Assembly (NCBI GenBank): GCA_945905925.1 | Contig: CAMDQN010000017.1 | Location: 1 to 64,000 of the forward strand | Reading direction: 5' to 3' | Origin: Singulisphaera sp. GP187 | GTDB taxonomy: Bacteria > Planctomycetota > Planctomycetia > Gemmatales > Gemmataceae | DNA: 64,000 nucleotides | Shown: positions 5,052 to 58,322 of the stretch, piece after piece | Layout: each line of letters opens with the position of its first letter | Position numbering within the stretch: position 1 is the stretch's first letter | The notes under the pieces: generated by a model | Told to the model about the DNA's origin: nothing | Seen by the model: the letters and a program-made list of their open reading frames with translations, nothing else | The model's database searches: none | Made by a program: the position numbers and the translations under genes

Positions 5052-7262
5052 TTATTTCTTGGGCGGTGTTGTGGTCTGCTTGAACACGTTCGCCTGGTCA
5101 GAGGCGAGGTCGCGCAACTTGTCCTGGAGTCGTTTGTTCTGCTCGTCTCGCATTTTGATCGCTTGACCGGCGTCCTCGCCGTTGACCACGATCTTGCGGC
5201 GGGCCTCCTTCGTGTAGCCGGGTGCGCGACCGGGGATAGGGTTCTTGTCGAACACTTCCACAAATAATTCAACCGTGTCGCCGACCTCAAGTTTCGCGGT
5301 CGTGAAGGTTCCGTCCGGTTGCGGGAGCTTTTTTAATAGTCCGTCGATCTCGAACATGTAGCGCCCCCCGGCTTCCATCCCCGCGGGTTCGGTGTCCGGC
5401 GCGGCCGACGGGAACGAGTAAAACTCGATGTTCACGCGGAACCGGTCCAGTTTGCTCAGTTTGAACCAGGACTGCTCGAACAAACCCAGGTCGGGGACGT
5501 ACGCGCCCACCGTTTTCAGGTCCGCCACGACCGGTTTGAGCGTGAGCCGGGTGAACAGTTTGCCCTCCGGGTCTTGCCGCGGGTGCTGGATGTCCTGAAG
5601 CTCCTTCGAGTAGGCGTCCGGGGCGACACCCTTCGGAATGACGCGGTACGCGACGTTCGCCCGGCTGATGCCCTGTTCCGACCGGGCGTGGTAAATCACC
5701 ATGACGCGCCCACCTTCCGCGAGCGGCAACCGATCGCCCCACTCGTGTGCGACCTTCGCTTCCGGGCGGCCGTCGTAGTCCTCCGGGTCCGGGTGGCGCG
5801 TCGATTCGGGCATGAACGTGACGACCGGTGCGCGGTCCTCCAACATGCGAACGTTACGGCGAATGGGCACCGAGTTCACGAACCCGCGATCATCCACGAG
5901 TTCGAGCCGGTAGCCGATCATGGTCCCCGTGGTTGGGAATAGCCACACAGCGGACTTGCGGTCGGCGGACAGGTCGCGCGGGGCGTGGAAGTCCGCGGGT
6001 CCGTCGCGTTTCGCATTGTGTGCGTAATCCTTTTCGTGGATGCCGTCGCGCACAATGGGAATCAGGCGTGCCTTCTGGAGCGGCTTGTTGAACTTCGCTT
6101 CGACGAGGATTTGCGACATCGGGAGCGCGTCGTTGATCTCGCCGCGAGTCCAGCCGTCGTTCTTGCGGACGAACGGGGCGCCGCCAGTCTGTGTGCCGAG
6201 GAACTTTGGCAGCCATTGCTCGGCGGTGATCGCGTCGCTGTCGCTGTTCAGTTGGGGCGGCGCCTCGAACCGGACGCGACCGGATTCGCGGGTGCGCCCG
6301 TTGTCGAGTCTGGCGGTGAAACTGAAGTCGAGCGACGACGGGGGGAGCCTGGTCACGAAGTACGCGACCTCGGATTCGCCCTCAACGTTGCCGTCGTAGA
6401 CGAGGTCGTAGCTCTCTTCCGGCTGGCCGTCCGGTTCGACGCGCAGGCGCCCGATTGTCGAAGTATCGAACGTGCCGGTCACCTTGTACCGGACTTCCAC
6501 CTCCGCGCCGCTTGGCCACACCTCTTGCGAAACGTTCCGCAAGTGGATGCTTCGCGGGATTTCGACGTTCAGGAGCAACTGGCGCTTTAGGAGTACGGTG
6601 GCCAGGTCGGGTTTCCACAGCGCGTAGGCGCTCCACCCGAGCAGCACCGGCACCACGATAAGCCCCGCGAACAGGAGTCGGGTGAAGTCGACGAGCGTGA
6701 GGAGGTTATGTTTGGCGGCCAACTCGCCAGCTTCGCGTGTGACCTCCGCGATGAGAACCTTCGACATGCCCTGCGTGCGCGCCGTCGGGCGGTTGAGTTG
6801 CACCGCGGTGACGAGCCGGTGCCCGAACGCGGGGATGGCTTTCTCAGCCTGGCTCGCGAGTTCGTCCACCGGGGGAGTGCGACGCCACGGACGCACGAGT
6901 AAGAAGTGCACGAGGCCGAGGCCGATGAAAATCTGCCCGCCGGTCATCAGGACGCGGAGCCACTTCGGGGAATCGTCGATGACCGCGGGGGCCGGGACGC
7001 GGAACCCGTGATCGAGCCGGAGGTGGTCGGTGAACCAGCGTTCTTCGGCCGTCGGCGCCGGCCCAGGCGCGAAGACCCAGGTCGCTTTGAGGAACTTGCG
7101 CCAGGTTTCGGAGCCGAGGTAGCGATCGGCCATCCAGTCCGTGATGCAGGCCATTGTGAGCAGCAGGCCGACGACCGCGACCCACCGCGCACCGCCCCAC
7201 GCGAGCCGGATTAACTGCTCCGTGAACCGCCAGCGTTTCAGTTGTCCGAGTAGGTGTGTCAT
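5052..7262 (-). CDS. Large membrane protein of the MoxR/VWA cluster, three TM helices
   Basis: A 736-residue protein with three predicted membrane helices in its first 220 residues (about 28-44, 105-125 and 200-220). A long exported part of beta-sandwich appearance follows, then a charged C-terminal helix (KMRDEQNKRLQDKLRDLASDQ). No catalytic motif is visible. The arrangement resembles the DUF4175-like proteins often found after BatA/VWA genes; I infer a structural or partner-binding role in the cell envelope. It sits 151 bp after the VWA/amidotransferase-like gene and 195 bp before the coiled-coil protein; both spacers carry palindromic repeats. The start is the ATG at 7262, beginning MTHLLGQLKRWRF. 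Confidence 0.7.
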   Translation of the reverse strand: MTHLLGQLKRWRFTEQLIRLAWGGARWVAVVGLLLTMACITDWMADRYLGSETWRKFLKATWVFAPGPAPTAEERWFTDHLRLDHGFRVPAPAVIDDSPKWLRVLMTGGQIFIGLGLVHFLLVRPWRRTPPVDELASQAEKAIPAFGHRLVTAVQLNRPTARTQGMSKVLIAEVTREAGELAAKHNLLTLVDFTRLLFAGLIVVPVLLGWSAYALWKPDLATVLLKRQLLLNVEIPRSIHLRNVSQEVWPSGAEVEVRYKVTGTFDTSTIGRLRVEPDGQPEESYDLVYDGNVEGESEVAYFVTRLPPSSLDFSFTARLDNGRTRESGRVRFEAPPQLNSDSDAITAEQWLPKFLGTQTGGAPFVRKNDGWTRGEINDALPMSQILVEAKFNKPLQKARLIPIVRDGIHEKDYAHNAKRDGPADFHAPRDLSADRKSAVWLFPTTGTMIGYRLELVDDRGFVNSVPIRRNVRMLEDRAPVVTFMPESTRHPDPEDYDGRPEAKVAHEWGDRLPLAEGGRVMVIYHARSEQGISRANVAYRVIPKGVAPDAYSKELQDIQHPRQDPEGKLFTRLTLKPVVADLKTVGAYVPDLGLFEQSWFKLSKLDRFRVNIEFYSFPSAAPDTEPAGMEAGGRYMFEIDGLLKKLPQPDGTFTTAKLEVGDTVELFVEVFDKNPIPGRAPGYTKEARRKIVVNGEDAGQAIKMRDEQNKRLQDKLRDLASDQANVFKQTTTPPKK

Positions 7263-7413
7263 GAATCGTGTTTGGTGTTTTGGTGTTTTGGTGTTTTGGT
7301 GTTTCGTGTTTGGTGTTTGGTGTTTGGTGTTTGGTAAGCCGCAAGCCGGAGGCGAGCGTCACCAGTGCCACGAAACACGAAACACCAAACACCAAACCAC
7401 AAAACACCAAACA
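7263..7413. repeat. Inverted GTGTTTG heptamer repeat around a TTAGCCG-type core
   Basis: The spacer begins with three GGTGTTTT octamers and four GTGTTTG heptamers. It then has a core resembling GTAAGCCGCAAGCC (about 7333-7363) and ends with the inverted form (ACGAAACACC, AAACACCAAAC). The two halves can fold into a long A/T-rich stem with the GC core at the tip. Related heptamer arrays lie in the spacers at 14967, 17292 and 18338. Confidence 0.85.
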
Positions 7414-10002
7414 CTAACTCAGGCCGTTGAACTTCCGCAGGAACCATTCGAGCGACAGCAGCCCGATGAGCAGGAACAGCGCCCAGCGGTTCCACATGAT
7501 TAGCTCGTCGCGGCGCGTGAAATTCGCGTACTGTGGCTTCACTTCGGCCGGCAGCGTGTGCAGGTCTTCCTCGTGATAGAACTTGCCCGGCTTGTCGGCC
7601 GCGCCGCTGTCGGCGGCGAGTTTCATCAGGTTGGCTTCCGCCAGCCCGCCGGGTGCCTGCTCGTGGTCTGGCGGCAGACTCACGCGGTACTCCAGGTTCG
7701 CCGGTGACCGGTTGTTGGGCGCGACGGCGAGTTTGTATCGGCCCGCCTGGTTGAACGGCAACGGCGACACGTACTCGCCGTCCTGCCCGTGCAACTTCCG
7801 CAACTTCACGGTCGTGAACTTGTCCTTGTCGTTCTGGTCCGCGTCGATCTTCTCAAGGATCGCGTCGATCTCCTCCGCCGTGAACGGCTTGAAGTTCTCG
7901 TCGAGGATGCGGGCGTAAACCTGACCGCTCTTGCCCTGCTGCGGTTCGAGCGTGTCGAGCGAAACTTGCGTGAGCTTCGTGCCCACCATGCGAGGCACGC
8001 CGGCCTGATAAACGCACTGGCTCCAGAACCGACCGAAGTATTTGTCTGACTCGTTGAACCGCCACTTCCAGGTGTCGTCGAACGCGCAGAACAGGACGTA
8101 GCCCTTGCCGTAGTAGTGCCCCGCGAGCAGTGGCATCGGCTTGTTGTCTGGCTCCGGCGTGCGCGCTGTCGGGTGAACCAGGAACGTCTCCGCCCCCGGC
8201 TTCAGCCGCGTTACGGGGTAGTACCACTCGATGGGCTGAAGTTGCTTCTTCTTCTCGACGCGGGTCGGATCGACTGGCGCCGGGGGCGGGTCGTTCGGAC
8301 CGGCCCTGAGCGTGCGCCCCCACAGTTCCGCGTTGTCGAGCGGGTCGTCTTCGAGCGAGACGAGTGGGTTTCGCGTTGCGTTTGGCGCGAGCGCCGGGGT
8401 GAACGGTTGGTAGTACCGGCCCTCCGGCGGCTGAATCGGGAACTTCACCTGCTTCAACTCGACCGGCAGCACGTCGGCGATCGACGCCTGGCCCTTCTCC
8501 GCGTCGAGCCACCCGCCGGGGCCGTTCCACTTCCCCGCGATGTGAACCATGCCGCCGCCTTCTGCGACGAACTCCTTGATCACCTGTTGCTGCTCGCGTG
8601 TGAAGAACTTGCCCGGCACGTCGCCGACGATGAGCAAGTCGTATTCGTTGATGAGCTTGCGAAACTCTTCGCGCTCCAGCGTGAGTTGCCCGTTGAGCTG
8701 GCGCGTGAACTCGGTCAGCCATGGGTAGCCGGCCTTCATTGCTTCGCGGTCGCCTTCGGTGAGGAAGAACCTCGCGTCCACGCGGCGATCGCGCAGCAGC
8801 GCGCGCTGGAGGAACTGGAAGTCTTTTCTTGGCAACCCGTCCAGCACCAGCACCTTCAACTTCTTGGTGACGACCTGCGTGGGCTTGGTGACAGCGTCCG
8901 TGAGCGTGTCGAGTGTGACACCGCCGGCGCCCACGCCGGGCGTCACGGTCACGGTCACGTTGATCTCCTGCTTCTTCGCGGTTGCGTCTTCCTTCGTGGG
9001 CGTGAAGGTCAGCACTTCGCGGATGTCGTCGCCTTCGCGCACCGGGATGCCGCGTTTGGCCGCGACTTCGCGGTCACCGAACTTCACCACGATATCGACC
9101 TTGCCGTCGGCCACGGCCTTGACCGCGTAGCGCACGGGAATGGACACGATGTCGTCGAGGAACACGGACTCCGGCACGCTCGCGTCGCGGAGTTTCAGTT
9201 GGCCGAACGAGGAACTTCCGACGCCATAGATGTACAGCGGAATCCGGCGCTCGCGGTACTTCTCGGCGAGTTCGATGAAGCTCTTGTCGCTGGCGTTCTC
9301 GCGTCCGTCGGTAACGATGACCACTGCGGCGGGTAGATCGTTGTCGTCGCGGTTGATCAACTCGAAGGCCGCGTTCACGATCGCGGTTCGCGGCTGGTCG
9401 GCGGTTACGTCCTTGATCCACGCGGTATCGATGGAGTCGCGCCCGCCACGGCTGGAACCGAACGTGGAGACTTCGAGCGGGCCGACCTTCTTGAGCTTGT
9501 TCAGCAGATCGAGTTTCGGATTGGTGAGGGCCGCGCGCGCGACCTCGATTCGCGACGGGGGCCAGGTGGCCATTTTCTTCTGGTCGACCTTGTGTTTCTC
9601 AAGCGTGGGGTCGAACGATTCGGACGGGAACGGCTTTCCCGGCTCGAGGAGGTCGAACGCGAGCGCGGCGCGCCACTGGTCGTCCGAGTTGGGCCGCGGG
9701 TCTTTTTGACCCATGCTTTCTGACACGTCGATGAGTACCGCGATGGAGCGGGGCCGGTCGCCGCCGCTCTCGCTGACCCACACCGGGCGCAGCAGCAGGA
9801 ACGCGACGACGAGCAGGATCGTCATGCGCACGCCCGCGAGCACGATCCTACGGAACGCGTCGAGGCGCCCGGATTCGAGTGCGTACAGCACCCCGACGGC
9901 GGCGACCCCGGCTAGCCCCAACAAGAGTGCCAGCCACGTGGGGAACCAGCCGCGCCGTTGCATTTCGGCGAACAACGGGGCGTATGCGAACAGGTGCGTC
10001 AT
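7414..10002 (-). CDS. VWA membrane protein with glutamine-amidotransferase-like domain
   Basis: An 862-residue protein. The start is the ATG at 10002 (MTHLFAYAPLFAEMQ), because the upstream frame runs through a palindromic repeat. Two N-terminal membrane helices (about 20-38 and 50-68) precede a von Willebrand A domain with a complete MIDAS start, DVSESM (DxSxS). A class-I glutamine-amidotransferase-like fold follows (KVLVLDGLPRKDFQFLQ, YDLLIVGDVPG, FVAEGGGMVHIAGKW), and a C-terminal helix (WALFLLIGLLSLEWF) anchors the end. No nucleophilic Cys is evident in that fold, so it is probably non-enzymatic. The 202-bp spacer to the upstream BatA gene holds a 147-bp inverted repeat. Confidence 0.85.
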   Translation of the reverse strand: MTHLFAYAPLFAEMQRRGWFPTWLALLLGLAGVAAVGVLYALESGRLDAFRRIVLAGVRMTILLVVAFLLLRPVWVSESGGDRPRSIAVLIDVSESMGQKDPRPNSDDQWRAALAFDLLEPGKPFPSESFDPTLEKHKVDQKKMATWPPSRIEVARAALTNPKLDLLNKLKKVGPLEVSTFGSSRGGRDSIDTAWIKDVTADQPRTAIVNAAFELINRDDNDLPAAVVIVTDGRENASDKSFIELAEKYRERRIPLYIYGVGSSSFGQLKLRDASVPESVFLDDIVSIPVRYAVKAVADGKVDIVVKFGDREVAAKRGIPVREGDDIREVLTFTPTKEDATAKKQEINVTVTVTPGVGAGGVTLDTLTDAVTKPTQVVTKKLKVLVLDGLPRKDFQFLQRALLRDRRVDARFFLTEGDREAMKAGYPWLTEFTRQLNGQLTLEREEFRKLINEYDLLIVGDVPGKFFTREQQQVIKEFVAEGGGMVHIAGKWNGPGGWLDAEKGQASIADVLPVELKQVKFPIQPPEGRYYQPFTPALAPNATRNPLVSLEDDPLDNAELWGRTLRAGPNDPPPAPVDPTRVEKKKQLQPIEWYYPVTRLKPGAETFLVHPTARTPEPDNKPMPLLAGHYYGKGYVLFCAFDDTWKWRFNESDKYFGRFWSQCVYQAGVPRMVGTKLTQVSLDTLEPQQGKSGQVYARILDENFKPFTAEEIDAILEKIDADQNDKDKFTTVKLRKLHGQDGEYVSPLPFNQAGRYKLAVAPNNRSPANLEYRVSLPPDHEQAPGGLAEANLMKLAADSGAADKPGKFYHEEDLHTLPAEVKPQYANFTRRDELIMWNRWALFLLIGLLSLEWFLRKFNGLS

Positions 10003-10204: not shown

Positions 10205-12442
10205 TCACTTCGCGCGCCCGCAGGACCACGCCCACGTCGCCTCGACGATGAGCAGGAACAGCAGGAACAGCAGCACCCACTCGGTCCACTCGCCCTTGGT
10301 GCGGCGGTCACGTACCGCGGTCTCGGTGCCGGCCCCAGCCTGGATGATCGTCGGCCGGAAGCCGAGTAACTTCTCCAGATCGCCATCGGAAATCACGTCG
10401 AGGTTTTCCGTCTCGCGAAGGTCCGGATTCACCGCGAACGTGATGCCGTCAATCTCCGGCGCGCCGATGGGCACGATCGCGTACTCGCCGGCCACGAGCG
10501 AATCGTTGGTGCTCACGGACGGTTTCTGCCCGGCCTCGGCCTTCGCTTCCCCGATCTTCACGCGGGGACGCACCTTCTCGCCCGGTTTCGCACCGCGGGG
10601 CCGCGGTTTCACCAGTTCGAATCCCGGCGCGGTCACGTTCGGGAACCACGTCAGCGTGTCGCCAGCCATCCGTGTGCCGCCGGGAACCTTGCGCCCGGTC
10701 AGGTGCGCGACGATGTACGTCGTCATTGGGATCGCGAGTTGTCCGTCGGACATCATGCGACTCCCCCACGCCTCGTCCAGCGCGGTCGCGAAGAAGATCA
10801 CCTCGCCCTCGCCGAACACGCGCGACGTGACTAGCGGCTTGCCGTCGGTCGTGCGCACCAGGACTCGGGAACCGGCCGCGCCAGGCGCCGTTTCGTCCAG
10901 TTGGACCAGACGCGTGCAGGTCGCACGACGGAGCCAGTCCGTGTACGGCTTTACCTGTCCGAACACGGAGTTCTCGTCGATGCTCTCTCCAGCCGTCACG
11001 AACGGGGTCGCGTCGGTGGTGTTCCAGTGTTCGTTCGGCGCCGGCCGCAACGGAATCGGTAACAGTCCCTCGCCGCCGAGGACGCGGTTGTACGCGTCAG
11101 CCTGGACCCGGTCGCCGCAGCCGATGACCAACCCGCCACCGTGTTTCACGAACTCGGTGAGCTTCTTCACGAACGCCGGCGATAGCCCCGTCAGCGGGTC
11201 GTCGGTACGGGCCTGTGCGTTGAGCAGGTACACGATGTCCTTGCCCGCGAGCTTGTCCGGGCCGACTTCGTGCGGAAGGATCGATTCCGTGTCGATGAAG
11301 TACTTTTCGATTTTGTCTTTGTCGCGCTCGGCGTCGAACGGAACCAGCGCCTTGCGCGCGAACCAGTCGCCCGCGTCGGTCGCCGGCAGCCCCGCGAACG
11401 GGTACGCTACGAGCAGCACGCGGACCTTTTCGCGCACGCCGACGATCTTGTAGAGCACGTTGTCGCCTTCGATCCCGTCGCCATCCACGTACACCGCGAG
11501 GAGCCGCGATCCTGCTTCGTCGAGGCTCCCAGTAAGGGTGACTTCCGCGTTCGCGCCGGGGTCGATCTGCTCGACCGACACCACGTTTTCGACCGCCTTG
11601 CCGTCGAGTTCGAGCGACACCTTTACGTTGCGGATTTGCTCGCGGCCCGTGTTGCGGACCGTGACCACGAACGGTACGCGGGTCCGGGTGTGCGGGATCG
11701 CGGCGAGCAACTTCACGTCGATGACGGAGACGTTCGAGATCTTGCGTTCCGGGTTGCCGCACCGGATGAACACGAGATTCGCCTTCGCCTTGATCTCCTC
11801 GCACTTCGCGCGAACGGCCCCCTGCTGCCGCTCGAACCCGACCTTCTGCATGTCGGAGAAGACGTAAATCTCCTTCGCCGGAGCGGTGCCGGTTTCGGCC
11901 GCGGCGAGCGCCTCGTTCAACCCCGGGAGGAAGTCCGTGGAGAGGCTACTCACTTCGAGGGACTGGATGAGCTGTTTCGCCTGGTCGCGGTTGTATCGCG
12001 AAACCGGACCAAGCAGATTGGCGCGGTCGGAGCAGGAATAGACCTGCACGCTCGACTTGTTGGGAAGCGTTTCGAGAACAGCAATCGCGGCGTCTTTGGC
12101 GCGTTCGAGCCGGGTCTTCTCGCCGTCGCGTGCGGACATGCTGTACGACGTATCGAACACGAACACGGCATCGATGGTCTCGCTACTGCCCGCGGAAGAA
12201 ACGTTCTCCCAACCCGGCCTGGCGATCGCGAGCGCGAGAAGAATGAGCGCGAGGCACCGCAATAGCAGCAGCAGCCACTCCTGGAACTTGAGGCGCCGGC
12301 TGGTCTGCTCGATGGCCTCCTTGAGGAACTTCATTGGCGCCCACGGGAGCGGCTTGTACCGCGCGCGGTAGAAGAAGTGCAGCGCGATCGGGACCGTGAT
12401 CGCGGCTGCACCGAGCATCATTAACGGGGCCAGTAACGTCAT
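10205..12442 (-). CDS. BatA-like protein with VWA domain
   Basis: A 745-residue membrane protein. The first 80 residues are a typical BatA N-terminal domain: a helix (LAPLMMLGAAAITVPIALHFF), the YKPLPWAPMKFL segment, then a second helix (LLLLRCLALILLALAIARP). A VWA domain follows with MIDAS motif DTSYSM. Later segments resemble CARDB-like beta domains and a glutamine-amidotransferase-like fold (IVYLLNAQ..., FVKHGGGLVIGCGD). A C-terminal helix (WVLLFLLFLLIVEATWAW) closes the protein. Bat proteins act with MoxR ATPases at the membrane; the substrate here is unknown. It lies 45 bp after the broken lipoprotein gene. Confidence 0.9.
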   Translation of the reverse strand: MTLLAPLMMLGAAAITVPIALHFFYRARYKPLPWAPMKFLKEAIEQTSRRLKFQEWLLLLLRCLALILLALAIARPGWENVSSAGSSETIDAVFVFDTSYSMSARDGEKTRLERAKDAAIAVLETLPNKSSVQVYSCSDRANLLGPVSRYNRDQAKQLIQSLEVSSLSTDFLPGLNEALAAAETGTAPAKEIYVFSDMQKVGFERQQGAVRAKCEEIKAKANLVFIRCGNPERKISNVSVIDVKLLAAIPHTRTRVPFVVTVRNTGREQIRNVKVSLELDGKAVENVVSVEQIDPGANAEVTLTGSLDEAGSRLLAVYVDGDGIEGDNVLYKIVGVREKVRVLLVAYPFAGLPATDAGDWFARKALVPFDAERDKDKIEKYFIDTESILPHEVGPDKLAGKDIVYLLNAQARTDDPLTGLSPAFVKKLTEFVKHGGGLVIGCGDRVQADAYNRVLGGEGLLPIPLRPAPNEHWNTTDATPFVTAGESIDENSVFGQVKPYTDWLRRATCTRLVQLDETAPGAAGSRVLVRTTDGKPLVTSRVFGEGEVIFFATALDEAWGSRMMSDGQLAIPMTTYIVAHLTGRKVPGGTRMAGDTLTWFPNVTAPGFELVKPRPRGAKPGEKVRPRVKIGEAKAEAGQKPSVSTNDSLVAGEYAIVPIGAPEIDGITFAVNPDLRETENLDVISDGDLEKLLGFRPTIIQAGAGTETAVRDRRTKGEWTEWVLLFLLFLLIVEATWAWSCGRAK

Positions 12443-12487
12443 CGCGTGTGAACCTTAATCGTTGTCTGCGAGCGGCGATCGGGTCGG

Positions 12488-12822
12488 TTACTTCTTCTTC
12501 AGGTGTAGCACGAGCACGGGCGTTTCGCGGGTTGTCGGCTTCGGCATCATCACCGGCTTGAACTCGGTCGGTCGGCCCGCGCTTGGGCCGGACGGTAAGG
12601 CGATCACGATCTCGTCGCCCTCGAACTTGTAGATCGCCCGGGGTGGCGGGTGCGTAAACGTCGTGACGGACTGCTTGCCGTACTTGGAGCCGTGAATCTC
12701 GTGCTTCCGCGGCTCACGGCTGTCTTTTCCTTCGGTCCCGATGGAGCTCACCTGACGCGGGGATTTCGTCGCGTCTTCGATCTTCCTATCGACGGTGAGG
12801 ACGATACGGCGAACGCACGCAT
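12488..12822 (-). pseudogene. Frameshifted and truncated lipoprotein paralogue
   Basis: An ATG at 12822 opens MRAFAVSS, like the start of the neighbouring lipoprotein (MRTFALFA). That frame stops after about 24 codons. The adjacent frame, open across the same region, continues RRIVLTVDRKIEDATKSPRQ and ends with IYKFEGDEIVI...PTEFKP...VLVLHLKKK. This tail parallels the upstream lipoprotein's WIYKFEGDTLVV...PAEFKARK...ITVITLKK. The N-terminal half, including the lipobox and the LQGSW motif, is missing. The simplest reading is a tandem duplicate that lost its middle and gained a frameshift. A GTG at 12751 could still give an 87-residue cytoplasmic remnant. Confidence 0.65.
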
Positions 12823-12839
12823 GGGCAGGCTCCTCGGGA

Positions 12840-13505
12840 TCACTTCTTGGTGCCGGGCCGGTAGGTTGCCGTGGTCGGAGTGCCGCGATACGGCCGGTCG
12901 ATTTTCGCCGGCGGCGTGTCGTTCTTTTTCAGCGTGATAACGGTGATGCCGGGCACCATCGGTTTGCCCGGTCCGAACTCGTCTTTGCGAGCCTTGAACT
13001 CGGCCGGCTTCTGAGTCATGTCGTCGTCGTAGTGCGCCACGACGAGCGTGTCGCCCTCGAACTTGTAGATCCATTGTCGCGTTTGCATTTCGCGATTCTC
13101 GGGCGTGGCGGCGGAACTCGTTCGCCTCGTGCCGGGGTGACTGGCCCGCGACGGCACGGCGTCGCGCATCCGGGATAGCGACATCACCTTCGGGTTCGCG
13201 GTCGTATCCAGAGTGAATGTCTCGGGCTCCTCGTCGCGCTCCTGGTCGCGCAAGACGATGAGTTTGTTACCCTCGAATCGGATGCGAATGCCCGCCATTT
13301 GGTCTTGCATCCTCTTCTTCTCTTCGCCGCGAAGGTTCTCGGCGCGGCCGTCTTCGACAAACTCGATGCTCCACGACCCCTGGAGGCGGTCCTGGTCGGT
13401 GGTCGTGACGTCCGCCGAGGGCGTCGTCGGTTCCGTCTTCTTCTTGCAACCGGTGCCGAACGCGGCTCCGGCAACGAGAATCGCGAACAGGGCGAACGTG
13501 CGCAT
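12840..13505 (-). CDS. Lipoprotein with TIGR03067-like beta domain
   Basis: A 221-residue predicted lipoprotein. The ATG at 13505 starts MRTFALFAILVAGAAFGTGC, a short signal peptide ending in a lipobox-like G-T-G-C, so Cys20 would be lipidated. The mature part has LQGSWSIEFVEDGR near residue 42, GIRIRFEGNKLIVL in the middle and a C-terminal WIYKFEGDTLVV segment. This layout is typical of the planctomycete TIGR03067 family, whose function is unknown. It starts 10 bp after the preceding gene and is followed after 17 bp by its own broken copy. An envelope role within the MoxR cluster is inferred from position only. Confidence 0.75.
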   Translation of the reverse strand: MRTFALFAILVAGAAFGTGCKKKTEPTTPSADVTTTDQDRLQGSWSIEFVEDGRAENLRGEEKKRMQDQMAGIRIRFEGNKLIVLRDQERDEEPETFTLDTTANPKVMSLSRMRDAVPSRASHPGTRRTSSAATPENREMQTRQWIYKFEGDTLVVAHYDDDMTQKPAEFKARKDEFGPGKPMVPGITVITLKKNDTPPAKIDRPYRGTPTTATYRPGTKK

Positions 13506-13515
13506 CGGTTGGTTC

Positions 13516-14079
13516 TCACCAGGGTCGTTCGAGGAGCCACACCGGGTCGCCATCGGTCGCGTCGAACGAGGTTGGGCGGGGCAAGGGGTTCGGCGCGACC
13601 AGCAGTTTCACCGTACCGTCTTGGATCAAGTAGATCCCGCGGAGCGTGACCGGTGTGAACTCTTCGCCGACACGTTTCTCCAGTCGTGGGTTGTCGTTGG
13701 GGGCGAGTTGCACGAGGTCGATCTCTTTCGGGTTCGCGTCCGGGCGGAGCGTCATCGTGTAGCGGTTCTGCGGCTTGTCCCCGACCAGCCACACCCACCG
13801 GTCGCCGGTCACGCGCACGGTGATTGGTGGTTGCTTCTCACGCTCGGCGAGAGTGAGCCGCCACTCGCCCTGGAACCGGCTGGCGTCGTCGCGTTGGCGC
13901 AGCGCGAAGTACAGGATCGCAAACGCAAACGCCCCGACGACGGCGACCAGAACGAGGGCGAGCCGGCGCGAAGAACCTCTCCCCCCAACCCCCTCCCCTA
14001 CGAAGGGAGGGGGAGCCTGCATTGCTTCCCCTCCCTTCTTAGGGGAGGGGGTTGGGGGGAGAGGTTCTTCCGCCGTCAT
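13516..14079 (-). CDS. Small membrane-anchored protein carrying an in-frame palindromic insert
   Basis: A 187-residue protein whose ATG (14077-14079) overlaps the DUF58 stop in an ATGA arrangement, which fixes the start. After MTA come 34 residues encoded by a palindromic DNA element (EEPLPPTPSPKKGG...PPPFVGEGVGGRGSS). A membrane helix follows (RRLALVLVAVVGAFAFAILYF) and then a periplasmic beta-rich domain starting FQGEWRLTLAERE. That FQGEW start recalls the LQGSW motif of the next gene's TIGR03067-like domain, so the two may be relatives. The insert lies in the presumed cytoplasmic tail, where extra residues should be tolerated. Molecular function is unknown. Confidence 0.7.
   Translation of the reverse strand: MTAEEPLPPTPSPKKGGEAMQAPPPFVGEGVGGRGSSRRLALVLVAVVGAFAFAILYFALRQRDDASRFQGEWRLTLAEREKQPPITVRVTGDRWVWLVGDKPQNRYTMTLRPDANPKEIDLVQLAPNDNPRLEKRVGEEFTPVTLRGIYLIQDGTVKLLVAPNPLPRPTSFDATDGDPVWLLERPW
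13969..14070. repeat. In-frame palindromic element, copy 1
   Basis: A 102-bp near-perfect inverted repeat with ends GAAGAACCTCTCCCCCCAAC and its complement. It is entirely inside the small membrane protein gene and adds 34 codons. The two arms differ at only a few positions (for example CCCTACGAAGG versus CCCTAAGAAGG). It is almost the same sequence as the copy at 57105-57206 inside an unrelated gene. Confidence 0.95.
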
Positions 14080-14966
14080 CGGCGCCCCGTTTGCAGCCGG
14101 CGCACGAGATACTCCGAAAGCGAGATGTCGAGCGGCCGGTTGGTGAGCATCTGCACGTAGTCCACGCCGCTCCCATCGCACCCTCTTTGGATGTCCGCGA
14201 GGTACTTCTTCACGATGCGGAGGTACGCCGGACGCAGCAAGTGCGGGCGTGTCATGAGTTCTTCGAACCCTTCCAGCCCGATGAAGCGGATGTTGCCGTC
14301 GAGCGGGAACTGCACTTCGTCAGGGTGCAGGATGTGGAACAGAATCACCTCGTGTCCACGGAATCGCAGGTGCCGAAGTGCCGCGAGAATCGGTTCGAGG
14401 TCTTCGAGGCAGTCGGAGATCAGACACACGATCCCACGCCGGCTGATCCGGTCCGCGACTTCATCGAGCAGCGGCCCGATCGCGGTGCGGTCGCGGGGTT
14501 GAGTGTCTTCGAGCGTGTGTGTGATCGCGTTGATGTGGGCCATTGAACTGCTCGACGGCAGTTCCGCGACCCAACTCGTATTGAAGATCCGCAGGCTGAC
14601 CGCGTCGCGCTGGCGGACGGTCAGGAACGCGAGCGACGCGGTCAGCAGTTTCGCGAACTCCAGTTTGTTCGTGTCGCCGCGACCATACCGCATCGAGTTA
14701 CTGCCGTCGAGCAGGAGGTGACACAGGAAGTTGGTTTCCTGTTCGTACTGCTTGATGGTGTAGCGTTCGGAGCGGCCGTAGCTCTTCCAGTCGATGTGCC
14801 TGATGTCGTCGCCAGGGACGTATTCGCGGTGTTGAACGAACTCGACCGAGAAGCCCTTGTAGGGGCTTTTGTGGTCGCCGACGCGCAGTCCCTCAACCAC
14901 CTGCCGGGCTTTGAGGCCCAGGGCTTCGGCGCGGGACAGGACTTTGGGATCGAGGTAGGAAGGCAT
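14076..14966 (-). CDS. DUF58 protein of the MoxR cluster
   Basis: A 296-residue cytoplasmic protein with the hallmark DUF58 stretch EYVPGDDIRHIDWKSYGRS near residues 50-68. Later it has a VWA-like strand with DGSNSMRYG near residue 88, a degenerate MIDAS. DUF58 proteins are regular partners of MoxR AAA+ ATPases and are thought to help them act on membrane or VWA clients. The gene follows moxR by 113 bp (a palindromic spacer) and overlaps the next gene by four bases, so the two are translationally coupled. Confidence 0.92.
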   Translation of the reverse strand: MPSYLDPKVLSRAEALGLKARQVVEGLRVGDHKSPYKGFSVEFVQHREYVPGDDIRHIDWKSYGRSERYTIKQYEQETNFLCHLLLDGSNSMRYGRGDTNKLEFAKLLTASLAFLTVRQRDAVSLRIFNTSWVAELPSSSSMAHINAITHTLEDTQPRDRTAIGPLLDEVADRISRRGIVCLISDCLEDLEPILAALRHLRFRGHEVILFHILHPDEVQFPLDGNIRFIGLEGFEELMTRPHLLRPAYLRIVKKYLADIQRGCDGSGVDYVQMLTNRPLDISLSEYLVRRLQTGRR

Positions 14967-15009
14967 CGTTGGTCGTGTTTGGTGTTTCGTATGTGGTGTT
15001 TCGGATGTT
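14967..15009. repeat. GTGTTTGGTGTTTCG heptamer array
   Basis: The sequence reads GTGTTTGGTGTTTCGTATG, then GTGGTGTTTCGG. It belongs to the same heptamer family as 7263-7413 and again abuts a TTAGCCGCAAGCC palindrome (15010-15071). Confidence 0.7.
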
Positions 15010-15071
15010 GGTTAGCCGCAAGCCGAAGGCGAGCGTGGATGTCCGCGCTCGCCTTCGGCTTGCGGCTAACC
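15010..15071. repeat. Perfect 26-bp-arm palindrome, TTAGCCGCAAGCC family
   Basis: Arms 15010-15035 and 15046-15071 are perfect reverse complements (each contains TTAGCCGCAAGCCGAAGGCG or its complement) around a 10-base loop. It lies between the moxR stop and the DUF58 start and may reduce read-through or stabilise the upstream mRNA end. Diverged copies are at 4986, 7333 and 34682. Confidence 0.92.
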
Positions 15072-15079
15072 AGACACCT

Positions 15080-16078: not shown

Positions 16079-16223
16079 GGTTGGCGCTCACGGTTTGCGG
16101 ATCGGGTGATTGTAAAGGCAGTCGTTCGGAGAAAAGCGGTTGGCGGGTAGGGCACTATCTAACCACACAAGACGAACCGACGCAAAGGATTAAACTTAAA
16201 CCTCGTCGGAAAAGTAGTGGCCC

Positions 16224-16305
16224 GAAGAACCCCTCTCCAACCCCTCCCCTAAGAATGGAGGGACTTCAGCATTTAGCCCCTCCATTCTTAGGGGAGGGGT
16301 TCTTC
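16224..16305. repeat. Shorter relative of the in-frame palindromic element
   Basis: An 82-bp inverted repeat with ends GAAGAACCCCTCTCC and its inverse, and arms sharing CCCCTCCCCTAAGAATGGAG. It begins two bases past the galE stop on the transcript and could act as a 3' stem. It shares the end GAAGAACC...CCCTCCCCTAAGAA with the copies at 13969 and 57105, but the arms are shorter. Read in the equivalent frame it is also open and would give EEPLSNPSPKNGG. Confidence 0.85.
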
Positions 16306-16307
16306 TG

Positions 16308-17291
16308 TTACTCTCCGAAGCCGTTGGGGTGGGTCTTGTGCCAGCGCCATGCGGTTCCGAGGATCGATTTCAGGTTGTCGTACTTCGCGGACCAGCCGAG
16401 TTCTTTGCGAATTTTGCTCGCGTCGGCCACGAGCACGGGCGGGTCGCCGGCGCGGCGCGGACCTTCCTTGACCGGCACCTTCAGGCCGGTTACCTCTTCG
16501 ACGGTCGCGATCACTTCGCGCACGCTGTACCCGCGACCGATTCCCACATTGTACGCGAGTTTCGTCCCCGGCCCGATTTTGCCGAGCGCGAGGACGTGCG
16601 CGGCGGCCAGATCATCGACGTGGATGTAGTCGCGAACGCAGGTGCCGTCGGGCGTGGGGTAGTCGGTGCCGAACACAGTAACGTGCGGAATCTTCCCGGC
16701 CGCGGCCTGGAACACGAGCGGGATCAGGTGCGGCTCCGGTGTGTGGTCTTCGCCGATGGTGCCGTCTTCCGCGGCCCCGGCCGCATTGAAGTACCGCAAC
16801 GCGCAGAACCCAAAGGGATACGCCCCGGCGTAGTCCGCAAGCGCTCGCTCGAACGCGAGCTTCGTGTTGCCATAGGGGCTCACTGGCAACTGCTTCTCGT
16901 CCTCGGTGATCGGCACCGTGTTAGTCACGCCATAGGTCGCGCAGGTGCTGGAGAAGACGAACTTTTGCACGCCGTTGCGCCTGCACCGGTCGAGCAGTTG
17001 CAGTGAGTAAATGAGGTTGTTGGTGTAGTATTTCGCGGGGTTCGTGATGGACTCGCCAACATACGCGAACGCGGCGAAGTGAACGACCGCTTCGATGCGG
17101 TTGACCACGAGCAGGTTATCGACGTGGTCGATGTCGCGGAGGTCGCCGACGACGAGGTTCGCGGCCGGGACCGCCTGCCGGTGGCCGAATTCGAGGCTGT
17201 CGTACGCGGTGACTTCGTGCCCGGCGGCGAGCAGTTGCCGGACCGTGTGTGAGCCGATGTAGCCGGCCCCGCCAGTGACCAAAATGCGCAT
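16308..17291 (-). CDS. galE: UDP-glucose 4-epimerase
   Basis: A 327-residue short-chain dehydrogenase/reductase of typical GalE length. The NAD-binding Rossmann start is GGAGYIGSH (residues 7-15). The catalytic YxxxK is in SPYGNTKLAFE near residue 145, with the conserved Ser/Thr in SSTCATYG before it. The substrate-side motif RYFNAAGA is present. It should interconvert UDP-glucose and UDP-galactose for surface polysaccharide. It lies 104 bp downstream of the ABC ATPase on the same strand; the spacer carries heptamer repeats. The short C-terminus ends with WHKTHPNGFGE. Confidence 0.95.
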   Translation of the reverse strand: MRILVTGGAGYIGSHTVRQLLAAGHEVTAYDSLEFGHRQAVPAANLVVGDLRDIDHVDNLLVVNRIEAVVHFAAFAYVGESITNPAKYYTNNLIYSLQLLDRCRRNGVQKFVFSSTCATYGVTNTVPITEDEKQLPVSPYGNTKLAFERALADYAGAYPFGFCALRYFNAAGAAEDGTIGEDHTPEPHLIPLVFQAAAGKIPHVTVFGTDYPTPDGTCVRDYIHVDDLAAAHVLALGKIGPGTKLAYNVGIGRGYSVREVIATVEEVTGLKVPVKEGPRRAGDPPVLVADASKIRKELGWSAKYDNLKSILGTAWRWHKTHPNGFGE

Positions 17292-56368: not shown

Positions 56369-56567
56369 GGCTGATCGGCTTCCGTGAGTGTAGATGAAAG
56401 ACAGTGCGTGCGGGCACTGGCGCGGTTCGCGTGGTTCGGATGCTTCCAGGGGAATGATAAGGGGTTTGGCGTGCGGTGGGAATGTCGGCGGGCGACGCGA
56501 TTCGGGTTGATTCCTTTCGCGCCAGAGCTTATCAGTTCCGGTTCCGAACGATGTTGGAGCCGTGCCG
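56369..56567. promoter_or_regulatory. Divergent intergenic region
   Basis: A 199-bp spacer between the diverging AAA ATPase and GT39-like genes that must hold both promoters. No confident promoter boxes. TTGGAG lies nine bases before the ATG at 56568. Confidence 0.35.
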
Positions 56568-58322
56568 ATGGTGCCGAGCCTGAACCCAGTTGTCGCGCGG
56601 CTGCCCGCGGGCGCCGCAGATTCGTTCGCGGGAAAATTCACCGATCTCGCCTGTCAGCGCGTCGCGTGCGTTCTCATTCTCACATCGGTCGTACTCCACA
56701 TCGCGTACCTGATTATTGGTTGCCCGCTCGACCTCGCACCGGACGAGGCGCACTACTGGCAGTGGTCGCGCCACCTCGCGTGGAGCTACTACAGCAAGGG
56801 GCCGCTGGTCGCGTGGCTCATCCGCGCGTCGTGCGAAGTGTTCGGGCCGCTCAGCAACGCGCTGATTGGTTCGCCGATGTTCGCGGTGCGCCTACCGGCG
56901 GTGGCGTGCCACGCGGCGCTGCTCGCGGGCTGGTATGTCCTCGCGGCTTCAACGCTGAAGAGTCATCGGGCGGCGCTCGCAACTGTGGCGCTGGCAATGA
57001 CGCTTCCGCCGGTGATCGCGGGCGCGGTTCTGATGACCATCGACCCGCCGTTCCTCGCGTGCTGGTGCTGGGCCGCGATCGGCGTGTGGAAGGGGTTGCG
57101 GCTGGAAGAACCTCTCCCCCCAACCCCCTCCCCTAAGAAGGGAGGGGGAGCCGGACTTTCTCCCCCTCCCTTCTTAGGGGAGGGGGTTGGGGGGAGAGGT
57201 TCTTCCCTGCGCTGGTGGCTGCTCGCAGCCGTGTGTTCCGCGTGTGGCGTGATGGCGAAGTACCCGATGGTGCTGCTCCCGTGCGGTGTGTTCGGCTACT
57301 TGCTCTTCACGCGGCGCTCTGAGTTGACGCGTCCGGGCTTCTGGCTGTTCGTTCTCGGCTCCGTTGTGGGATTGGTGCCGGTTCTGATCTGGAACGCGAC
57401 GAACGACTGGGTCACGTTCCGGCACGTCGGCACGCAAGCGGCCGGCACCGGCGGAAGCGGGATTCGGTGGTTCGGGCCACTCACCTACGCGGCCGGGCAG
57501 TTCGCGTTTTTGATCGGCGTGTGGTTCGTGGTGTGGGTCGCCGCCGCGTGGCGGGCGCGCCGGGCAACCGACTCGGCCACGGCTTTTCTGTGGTGGACCT
57601 CGGTGCCGGTGTGGTTCGTGTTCGCGGTCGCGAGCTTCAAAGCGTCCGGGCAGATCAACTGGCCGGCCGCAGCCTACGTCACCGGGTTCGTGCTGTGCGT
57701 CGCGTGGGTGCGCGACCAACTTGCGGGGCCGAACCACAAGTACGTCGCGCGCCTGGTGAGCGTTGGCATCGCCATCGGCCTCGCGCTCTCGGCACTTGTG
57801 CATTTCCCCGGGTTGATGCGGTCGGCACTGGCAAGCGCCGCCGGATCACCGACGGAGAAAGACCCAACCCCAATCCGCAAGTTCGACCCGACGGCGCGGC
57901 TCCGCGGGTGGAAGACACTCGCGACCGAAGTGGACGTGATTCGTGATCGCGTGCGATCCGAGACCGGTGAAGAACCACTCGTTGCGGGGACCGTGTGGAA
58001 CGTGCCCGGCGAACTGGGCGTGTATTGCAAGGGCCACCCGGAGACGTATTCGTTCGGCCTCGCGATGGCCGACCGGCACTCGCAGTACGACATGTGGCAC
58101 CCGAATCCCGTTGCCGACGCGCAAGCATTTCGCGGGCGCACGTTCGTGTTCGTCGGGGACGGACTCCCCGCCGACACCAAAGTCTTCGATCGCGTGGAAC
58201 TGGCGATAATCGTCGTTCACCGCGAAGAGGGCGTCCCGGTGGCGGTCTGGTGGGTGTGGGTCGGGCATGGGTTCCGGGGATTCCCCGAGAAGCCGCTCGC
58301 GCCCGGCACTAAACGCTATTAA
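56568..58322 (+). CDS. GT39/ArnT-like membrane glycosyltransferase with in-frame palindromic insert
   Basis: A 584-residue polytopic protein. ATG 56568 is chosen (GGAG nine bases upstream) over a GTG at 56562. The first helix (VACVLILTSVVLHIAYLII) leads into the lumenal loop PDEAHYWQWSRHLAWSYYSKGPLVAWLI, the acidic catalytic loop of lipid-linked-sugar transferases of the ArnT/PMT group. Several helices follow. Between them a 34-residue segment (57105-57206) is encoded by a palindromic element and would otherwise leave GVWKGLRL joined to LRWWLLAAVC, so it sits in a loop. It should move a sugar from a polyprenyl carrier to a cell-surface acceptor. Confidence 0.82.
   Translation: MVPSLNPVVARLPAGAADSFAGKFTDLACQRVACVLILTSVVLHIAYLIIGCPLDLAPDEAHYWQWSRHLAWSYYSKGPLVAWLIRASCEVFGPLSNALIGSPMFAVRLPAVACHAALLAGWYVLAASTLKSHRAALATVALAMTLPPVIAGAVLMTIDPPFLACWCWAAIGVWKGLRLEEPLPPTPSPKKGGGAGLSPPPFLGEGVGGRGSSLRWWLLAAVCSACGVMAKYPMVLLPCGVFGYLLFTRRSELTRPGFWLFVLGSVVGLVPVLIWNATNDWVTFRHVGTQAAGTGGSGIRWFGPLTYAAGQFAFLIGVWFVVWVAAAWRARRATDSATAFLWWTSVPVWFVFAVASFKASGQINWPAAAYVTGFVLCVAWVRDQLAGPNHKYVARLVSVGIAIGLALSALVHFPGLMRSALASAAGSPTEKDPTPIRKFDPTARLRGWKTLATEVDVIRDRVRSETGEEPLVAGTVWNVPGELGVYCKGHPETYSFGLAMADRHSQYDMWHPNPVADAQAFRGRTFVFVGDGLPADTKVFDRVELAIIVVHREEGVPVAVWWVWVGHGFRGFPEKPLAPGTKRY
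57105..57206. repeat. In-frame palindromic element, copy 2
   Basis: Arms 57104-57150 and 57160-57206 are perfect 47-bp reverse complements around a nine-base spacer. The element encodes EEPLPPTPSPKKGG, a five-residue spacer and PPPFLGEGVGGRGSS inside the glycosyltransferase. Of the three forward frames, the other two each contain a stop (TAG or TAA), so this is the only open one. Confidence 0.96.

Follow-up and report, generated by a model that had tools for sequence, protein, structure and literature searches.

How does a long perfect palindrome come to lie, in frame, within the gene of a membrane protein? To our knowledge, palindromes that code for protein have so far been treated mainly as a peculiarity of Rickettsia. 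The question is raised by positions 57104-57206 of the window (the whole 64,000-nt stretch of DNA analysed), where a palindromic dimer, itself without strand, consists of two inverted hairpin units and a 9-nt loop. Half-unit 1 (57104-57150, plus strand) is a hairpin, CCCCCTCCC-CTAAGAA-GGGAGGGGG, with the 5′ tail GAAGAACCTCTCCCCCCAA; half-unit 2 (57160-57206, minus strand) is its exact reverse complement. The first-pass annotation had described a 47-bp perfect inverted repeat, and the two 47-nt arms were indeed 100% complementary; the span of 103 nt is one base longer than the 57105-57206 given there. Folded as DNA, the whole palindrome formed a single extended hairpin (-64.4 kcal/mol; z = -13.9 versus dinucleotide shuffles), and each arm alone was also foldable as a small hairpin.

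The palindrome is read as 34 residues (EEPLPPTPSPKKGGGAGLSPPPFLGEGVGGRGSS) in frame with the ORF at 56562-58322 (plus strand). This ORF encodes a GT39-like membrane glycosyltransferase of 586 aa that matched Pfam PMT_2 (E 2.6e-15), in agreement with the earlier description of a 34-residue contribution to a membrane enzyme. Six-frame translation also agreed with the claim that the only stop-free frame is the one in use: the second (middle) frame was the sole stop-free one on each strand, and both orientations gave nearly identical peptides. In the structural model of the glycosyltransferase, the insert forms a predicted linker (residues about 181-211) between helices H161-180 and H212-232. The model was confident around the linker and not inside it (pLDDT < 50 at 189-212), and the fold was kept. 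We infer that both helices are transmembrane; on this model they are joined by the insert as a disordered linker.

The segment had been taken for an insertion, and alignment of orthologues showed that it is not universal: ten glycosyltransferase orthologues within the genus lacked it. The site was empty in the sister genome G003 and filled in G000 (the genome of the window; 6.47 Mb, 251 contigs), G007 and G012. Relative to the empty G003 orthologue, the net gain was 32 residues rather than 34 because the junction sequence changed too. The loop held other palindrome-type sequences in G007, G012, G016, G009, G010 and G015 (family labels assigned by eye) and a degenerate stretch in G001. Loci L023 and L032 (G010 and G015) had, in frame at the same residue, an inverted low-complexity insert of a third type, GTGAGGAGTGAGGAG.../...CTCCTCACTCCTCAC.

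A dispersed palindrome family in Gemmata

A search of G000 with core CCCCCTCCCCTAAGAAGGGAGGGGG (25 nt, up to 3 mismatches) revealed 133 + 131 = 264 half-unit matches, versus 0 for a reversed control pattern, an excess far above chance; the element count was about 130. The earlier suggestion of a dispersed palindrome family is thereby confirmed genome-wide, and the mobility that it implied is presumed. Two further copies lie in the window, at 13970-14071 (arms 96% complementary) and at 16221-16318 (diverged subfamily c, AACCCCTCCCCTAAGAATGGAGGG...), neither assigned to a strand; coding was detected on one side only of each.

Architecture and reading frames were determined in a subset of all copies, namely 60 stretches around listed core matches plus the window (1.2 Mb, 93 element groups). 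The 180 half-units of this sample fell into the 93 groups, 84 of which were inverted dimers in the order '+-'; the order '-+' never occurred. Dimer spacers measured 7-65 nt, and the consensus of the 180 half-units was GAAGAACCTCTCCCCCCAACCCCCTCCCCTAAGAAGGGAGGGGGAG. Several subfamilies were present, in one of which the stem had changed in a compensatory way (CTTCCC/GGAAG), and mixed dimers were found too. Arm-to-arm correction as a general process was rejected, since only 5/33 private variants were common to both arms; that such variants are mostly unshared says little about the origin of the dimer. Some copies were single half-units (L059 13628, L061 13803 and L089 1072), and the tail of subfamily c contained tandem AACCCCTCCCC repeats; these two observations suggest decay or slippage.

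The core was found in 12 of the 18 other genomes of the genus, whose records carry the names Gemmata sp. or Gemmataceae, and in none of the 293 other planctomycete genomes that were sampled beyond the genus. As far as sampled, the family is thus restricted to Gemmata. G007, a single contig of 10.1 Mb, had 61 core copies. Counts exceeded 60 in G000, G003, G007, G009 (80 core matches), G012 and G015, and were 0 in G005, G008, G011, G013, G014 and G017. Sister species prefer other subfamilies (CCCCCTTCCC...), and family types track the genome: a in G000 and G003, and b, c and d in G007, G012 and G009 (Gemmata sp. IIL30). A literature search by peptide and DNA strings gave no match.

Candidate mobilisers were sought among Y1 transposases and near the copies themselves. 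Of 32 PF01797 (Y1_Tnp) loci from G000 and the rest of the genus, 0 had the unit within about 1.5 kb; the Y1-transposase genes of G000 likewise carried no C-rich unit, and the RAYT loci L050 and L051 had their own, different inverted repeats. The Y1_Tnp search of single-contig G007 gave no match, despite its core copies. No GTAG/CGTC tag was present at the hairpin foot in the half-unit consensus, and no enriched flanking direct repeat indicative of target-site duplication was detected over the 84 dimers. When the longest ORFs in gaps between neighbouring copies of the 1.2-Mb sample were judged by eye on their first residues, none was transposase-like.

Reading frames and host linkers

Coding context was assigned by a hexamer score trained on long ORFs, not by curated annotation. 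By this score, both flanks were coding on one strand in 47 of the 84 dimers of the 1.2-Mb sample, versus the 67% expected from random cuts in the same DNA. The frame was kept across the insert in 43 of these 47 (P about 1e-16 versus one third). In all, 39/84 dimers were in a gene, in frame and stop-free; the frame was shifted in 4, and a stop was carried in 4. Genes are therefore only mildly depleted of copies, whereas frame-breaking copies are strongly depleted. The 39 in-frame stop-free dimers used frame 2 in 27 cases, frame 0 in 12 and frame 1 in none. Counting of copies in genes thus revealed non-random frame use, as the first-pass annotation had anticipated. These frame and stop statistics point to translation of the insert.

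Which frame is read depends on the stops and on the length of the spacer: frame 1, in which every arm has a TAA or TAG, is never read, and copies whose spacer phase keeps both other frames open are divided between them (11 versus 8). The number of open frames out of six was 2.29 in non-genic copies versus 2.15 in shuffles, and 2.41 versus 2.24 for genic copies; random genomic stretches had 3.36. Since open frames match those of shuffles, and copies with two open frames use both, selection after insertion is enough to produce the frame pattern.

Among the hosts that Pfam identified were SMC (hinge domain), a NuoL-type antiporter subunit, RecD2 helicase, an AcrB-family pump and UbiD, together with Lnt, an MgsA-type AAA ATPase, a P-type ATPase, an FAD-linked oxidase and three PMT-type transferases. 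Conserved Pfam domains continued across the insert in the AcrB-type, SMC hinge, UbiD and PSD1 hosts. Two PSCyt2/PSD1 paralogues (L065 7690-10968 and L071 9448-11889) each carried an element at one shared site in the PSD1 domain region (THPELLDWLA-EFQ), and the spacers of the two elements differed. At L098, two 694-aa genes in opposite orientation (7152-9233 and 12118-14199) had the same element in the same place; either the region is duplicated in inverted orientation or the assembly has produced this arrangement.

Orthologous junctions were compared for 12 further host genes, picked solely because G000 carries an element there. Inserted DNA was almost always present at these junctions in G003, G007, G012 and G009, often belonging to another family or consisting of 2-3 families in a row. 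Unrelated families (GAAGCCGC..., GCGAACGGCC... and GTGAGGAG...) and nested arrays of 2-3 families occurred at the same sites. Palindromy exceeded that of shuffles in 29/47 orthologous inserts. The inserts were in frame in 33/35 cases in G003, G007 and G012. This count leaves out G009 (L177-L188), in which 6/12 orthologous inserts were out of frame, unlike in other genomes; we judged these breaks to resemble homopolymer errors, and they are likely to be errors of sequencing. The pattern recurs in single-contig G007 and is therefore not an assembly artefact. Loose regular-expression matching yields too many calls of C-rich families, and no family count relies on it.

In the outgroups G017 and G011, in which the core search found no copy, the 12 host sites contained a polar variable loop of about 10-86 residues. 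Indels of at least 8 residues elsewhere in the flanks numbered 2 in 8,003 aligned residues. These two findings indicate that the inserts occupy linkers that vary naturally, and that they have for the most part taken the place of these linkers. Several hosts had lost the residues of the ancestral loop; the event was therefore not a simple insertion but a replacement, or an insertion with later trimming. In host 2, spacers were similar in G000 and G003, and some insertions are therefore inherited.

Origin of the inserts

The family is probably a Gemmata-specific non-autonomous palindromic repeat, moved in trans and filtered by selection into permissive variable linkers. The best reading is a REPIN-like non-autonomous element, whose architecture and dispersion suggest mobility of the REPIN or MITE kind. 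Elements would be mobilised by an activity in trans and would insert widely; they were carried by none of the 32 Y1/RAYT loci. Gene-breaking copies would be purged, and the survivors would be those in naturally variable linkers, translated as proline/glycine-rich peptides. Elements lay in variable linkers at all 13 host sites compared. Such linkers may be hit repeatedly, with nesting, trimming and, in sister species, replacement by palindromes of other families, because a linker that accepted one insert can accept another. Recurrent refilling is most simply explained by tolerance, these linkers being the sole permissive places that accept inserts. By analogy with what is thought of Rickettsia palindromes, the inserted peptide is probably a tolerated filler that has no dedicated function. 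We are more doubtful of a standing process of linker replacement in Gemmata, in which several unrelated palindrome families would preferentially and repeatedly return to the same disordered linkers of conserved proteins, entering or overwriting them, and cassette exchange of linker sequences between species would outpace point mutation. Its cause is possibly that existing palindromes attract new ones, or that they are converted to the resident type.

Filled orthologous sites in several species, family types that follow the genome and the inherited insertions suggested by the host 2 spacers could also be the outcome of ancestral clade-wide insertions, homogenised within each species by gene conversion or template switching between copies. 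However, G003 is empty at the glycosyltransferase site where three other genomes are filled, and conversion between like copies would not produce unrelated families or nested arrays at the same sites; we consider this history unlikely. Mobilisation of a true REPIN by a RAYT transposase appears quite improbable. The two inverted hairpin units, the variable spacer and the existence of RAYT-type Y1 genes in the genus fit it, whereas the Y1 loci lacked the unit nearby, the consensus lacked the tag, G007 combined numerous core copies with no Y1_Tnp match, and L050 and L051 had repeats of their own.

The first-pass annotation had favoured a family adapted to coding, in which the element itself is selected for an open frame and harmlessness in proteins. 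About half of the copies are inside genes, and the peptide hardly changes with orientation, which fits such a family. Its central claim failed, however: open frames were no more numerous than in shuffles and fewer than in random genomic DNA, one frame of every arm is closed by TAA or TAG, and copies with two open frames use both. We therefore hold this reading to be very improbable. Removal of the insert by RNA splicing, or its skipping by ribosomal bypassing, would leave it absent from the protein. The hairpin is strong enough to invite comparison with the ribosome-bypassed hairpin elements of Magnusiomyces capitatus mitochondria, as these are cited in PMC6649704. Bypassed or spliced elements need no frame, yet the frame is kept in nearly all dimers within coding sequence; byp-type bypassed elements and introns differ from the Gemmata copies in this respect, and such an explanation is exceedingly improbable. 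A repeat moved in trans and retained in permissive linkers is thus our preferred reading.

Relation to known palindromic elements

The Rickettsia palindromic elements (RPEs; Ogata et al. 2000/2002, Claverie & Ogata 2003), as cited in PMC6649704 and PMC3733652, are ~100-bp palindromes translated in frame in Rickettsia genes. The Gemmata family resembles them in being dispersed, of similar length, in frame in unrelated genes and tolerated by the host protein; nearly half of its dimers are in frame and stop-free, and the inserts lie outside the conserved core, in loops that are variable in outgroups at 12 hosts. The parallel with RPEs drawn earlier holds as a way of working. Gemmata differs in belonging to another phylum, in its GC-rich two-hairpin dimer and in that sister species refill linkers with other families. 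In Nematomorpha mitochondria, perfect inverted repeats also occur in functional genes, but the arms there encode conserved residues and do not form one dispersed family (PMC6649704), whereas the Gemmata insert replaces a non-conserved linker.

MITEs likewise are short, have terminal inverted repeats, reach many copies and lack a transposase of their own; the Gemmata family differs from them in showing no target-site duplication signal over the 84 dimers. Gaps between neighbouring copies in the 1.2-Mb sample, read by eye, revealed no candidate parental transposon. REPINs share the pair of inverted repeat units flanking a spacer and the dispersion in the genome (PMC3116915), and differ from the present family, for which no RAYT partner was found and which has a 7-65-nt spacer and a frequent in-gene location. 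Intragenic REP dimers of the GTAG and CGTC families are known, including in repair genes and in a Verrucomicrobium, and in one case, recB of X. campestris and X. oryzae, different REPs occupy about the same site (PMC3733652). These too are inverted dimers of small hairpins, some within ORFs. However, the Gemmata family has neither the tag nor a RAYT association, about half of its copies are in genes whereas REPs are mostly extragenic, and the same linkers are filled recurrently across at least 5 species.

The statement that such elements are undescribed in planctomycetes stands in part: REPs in Planctomycetes, and ORF-internal REP dimers elsewhere, have been published (PMC3733652). New here are the clade and element type, the high in-gene share, the occurrence in core genes and the finding that, from species to species, the same linkers are refilled again and again. 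In this environmental bacterial clade, genomes are large and contain in-frame copies by the dozen, with SMC, NuoL and RecD2 among the core genes affected; short repeats thus go on rewriting parts of the proteins that are not critical. Sites that are empty in one sister species and refilled in another are natural replicates that make the origin of new protein segments from selfish repeats directly testable. For annotation, PLPPTPSPKKGGG-type peptides in Gemmata should be regarded as repeat-derived. Another palindrome, TTAGCCGCAAGCCGAAGGCGAGCG, has copies at 15009-15072 and 7339-7362 of the window and also borders the Y1-transposase gene at L050 of G000; a RAYT-type REP family therefore coexists with the C-rich family.
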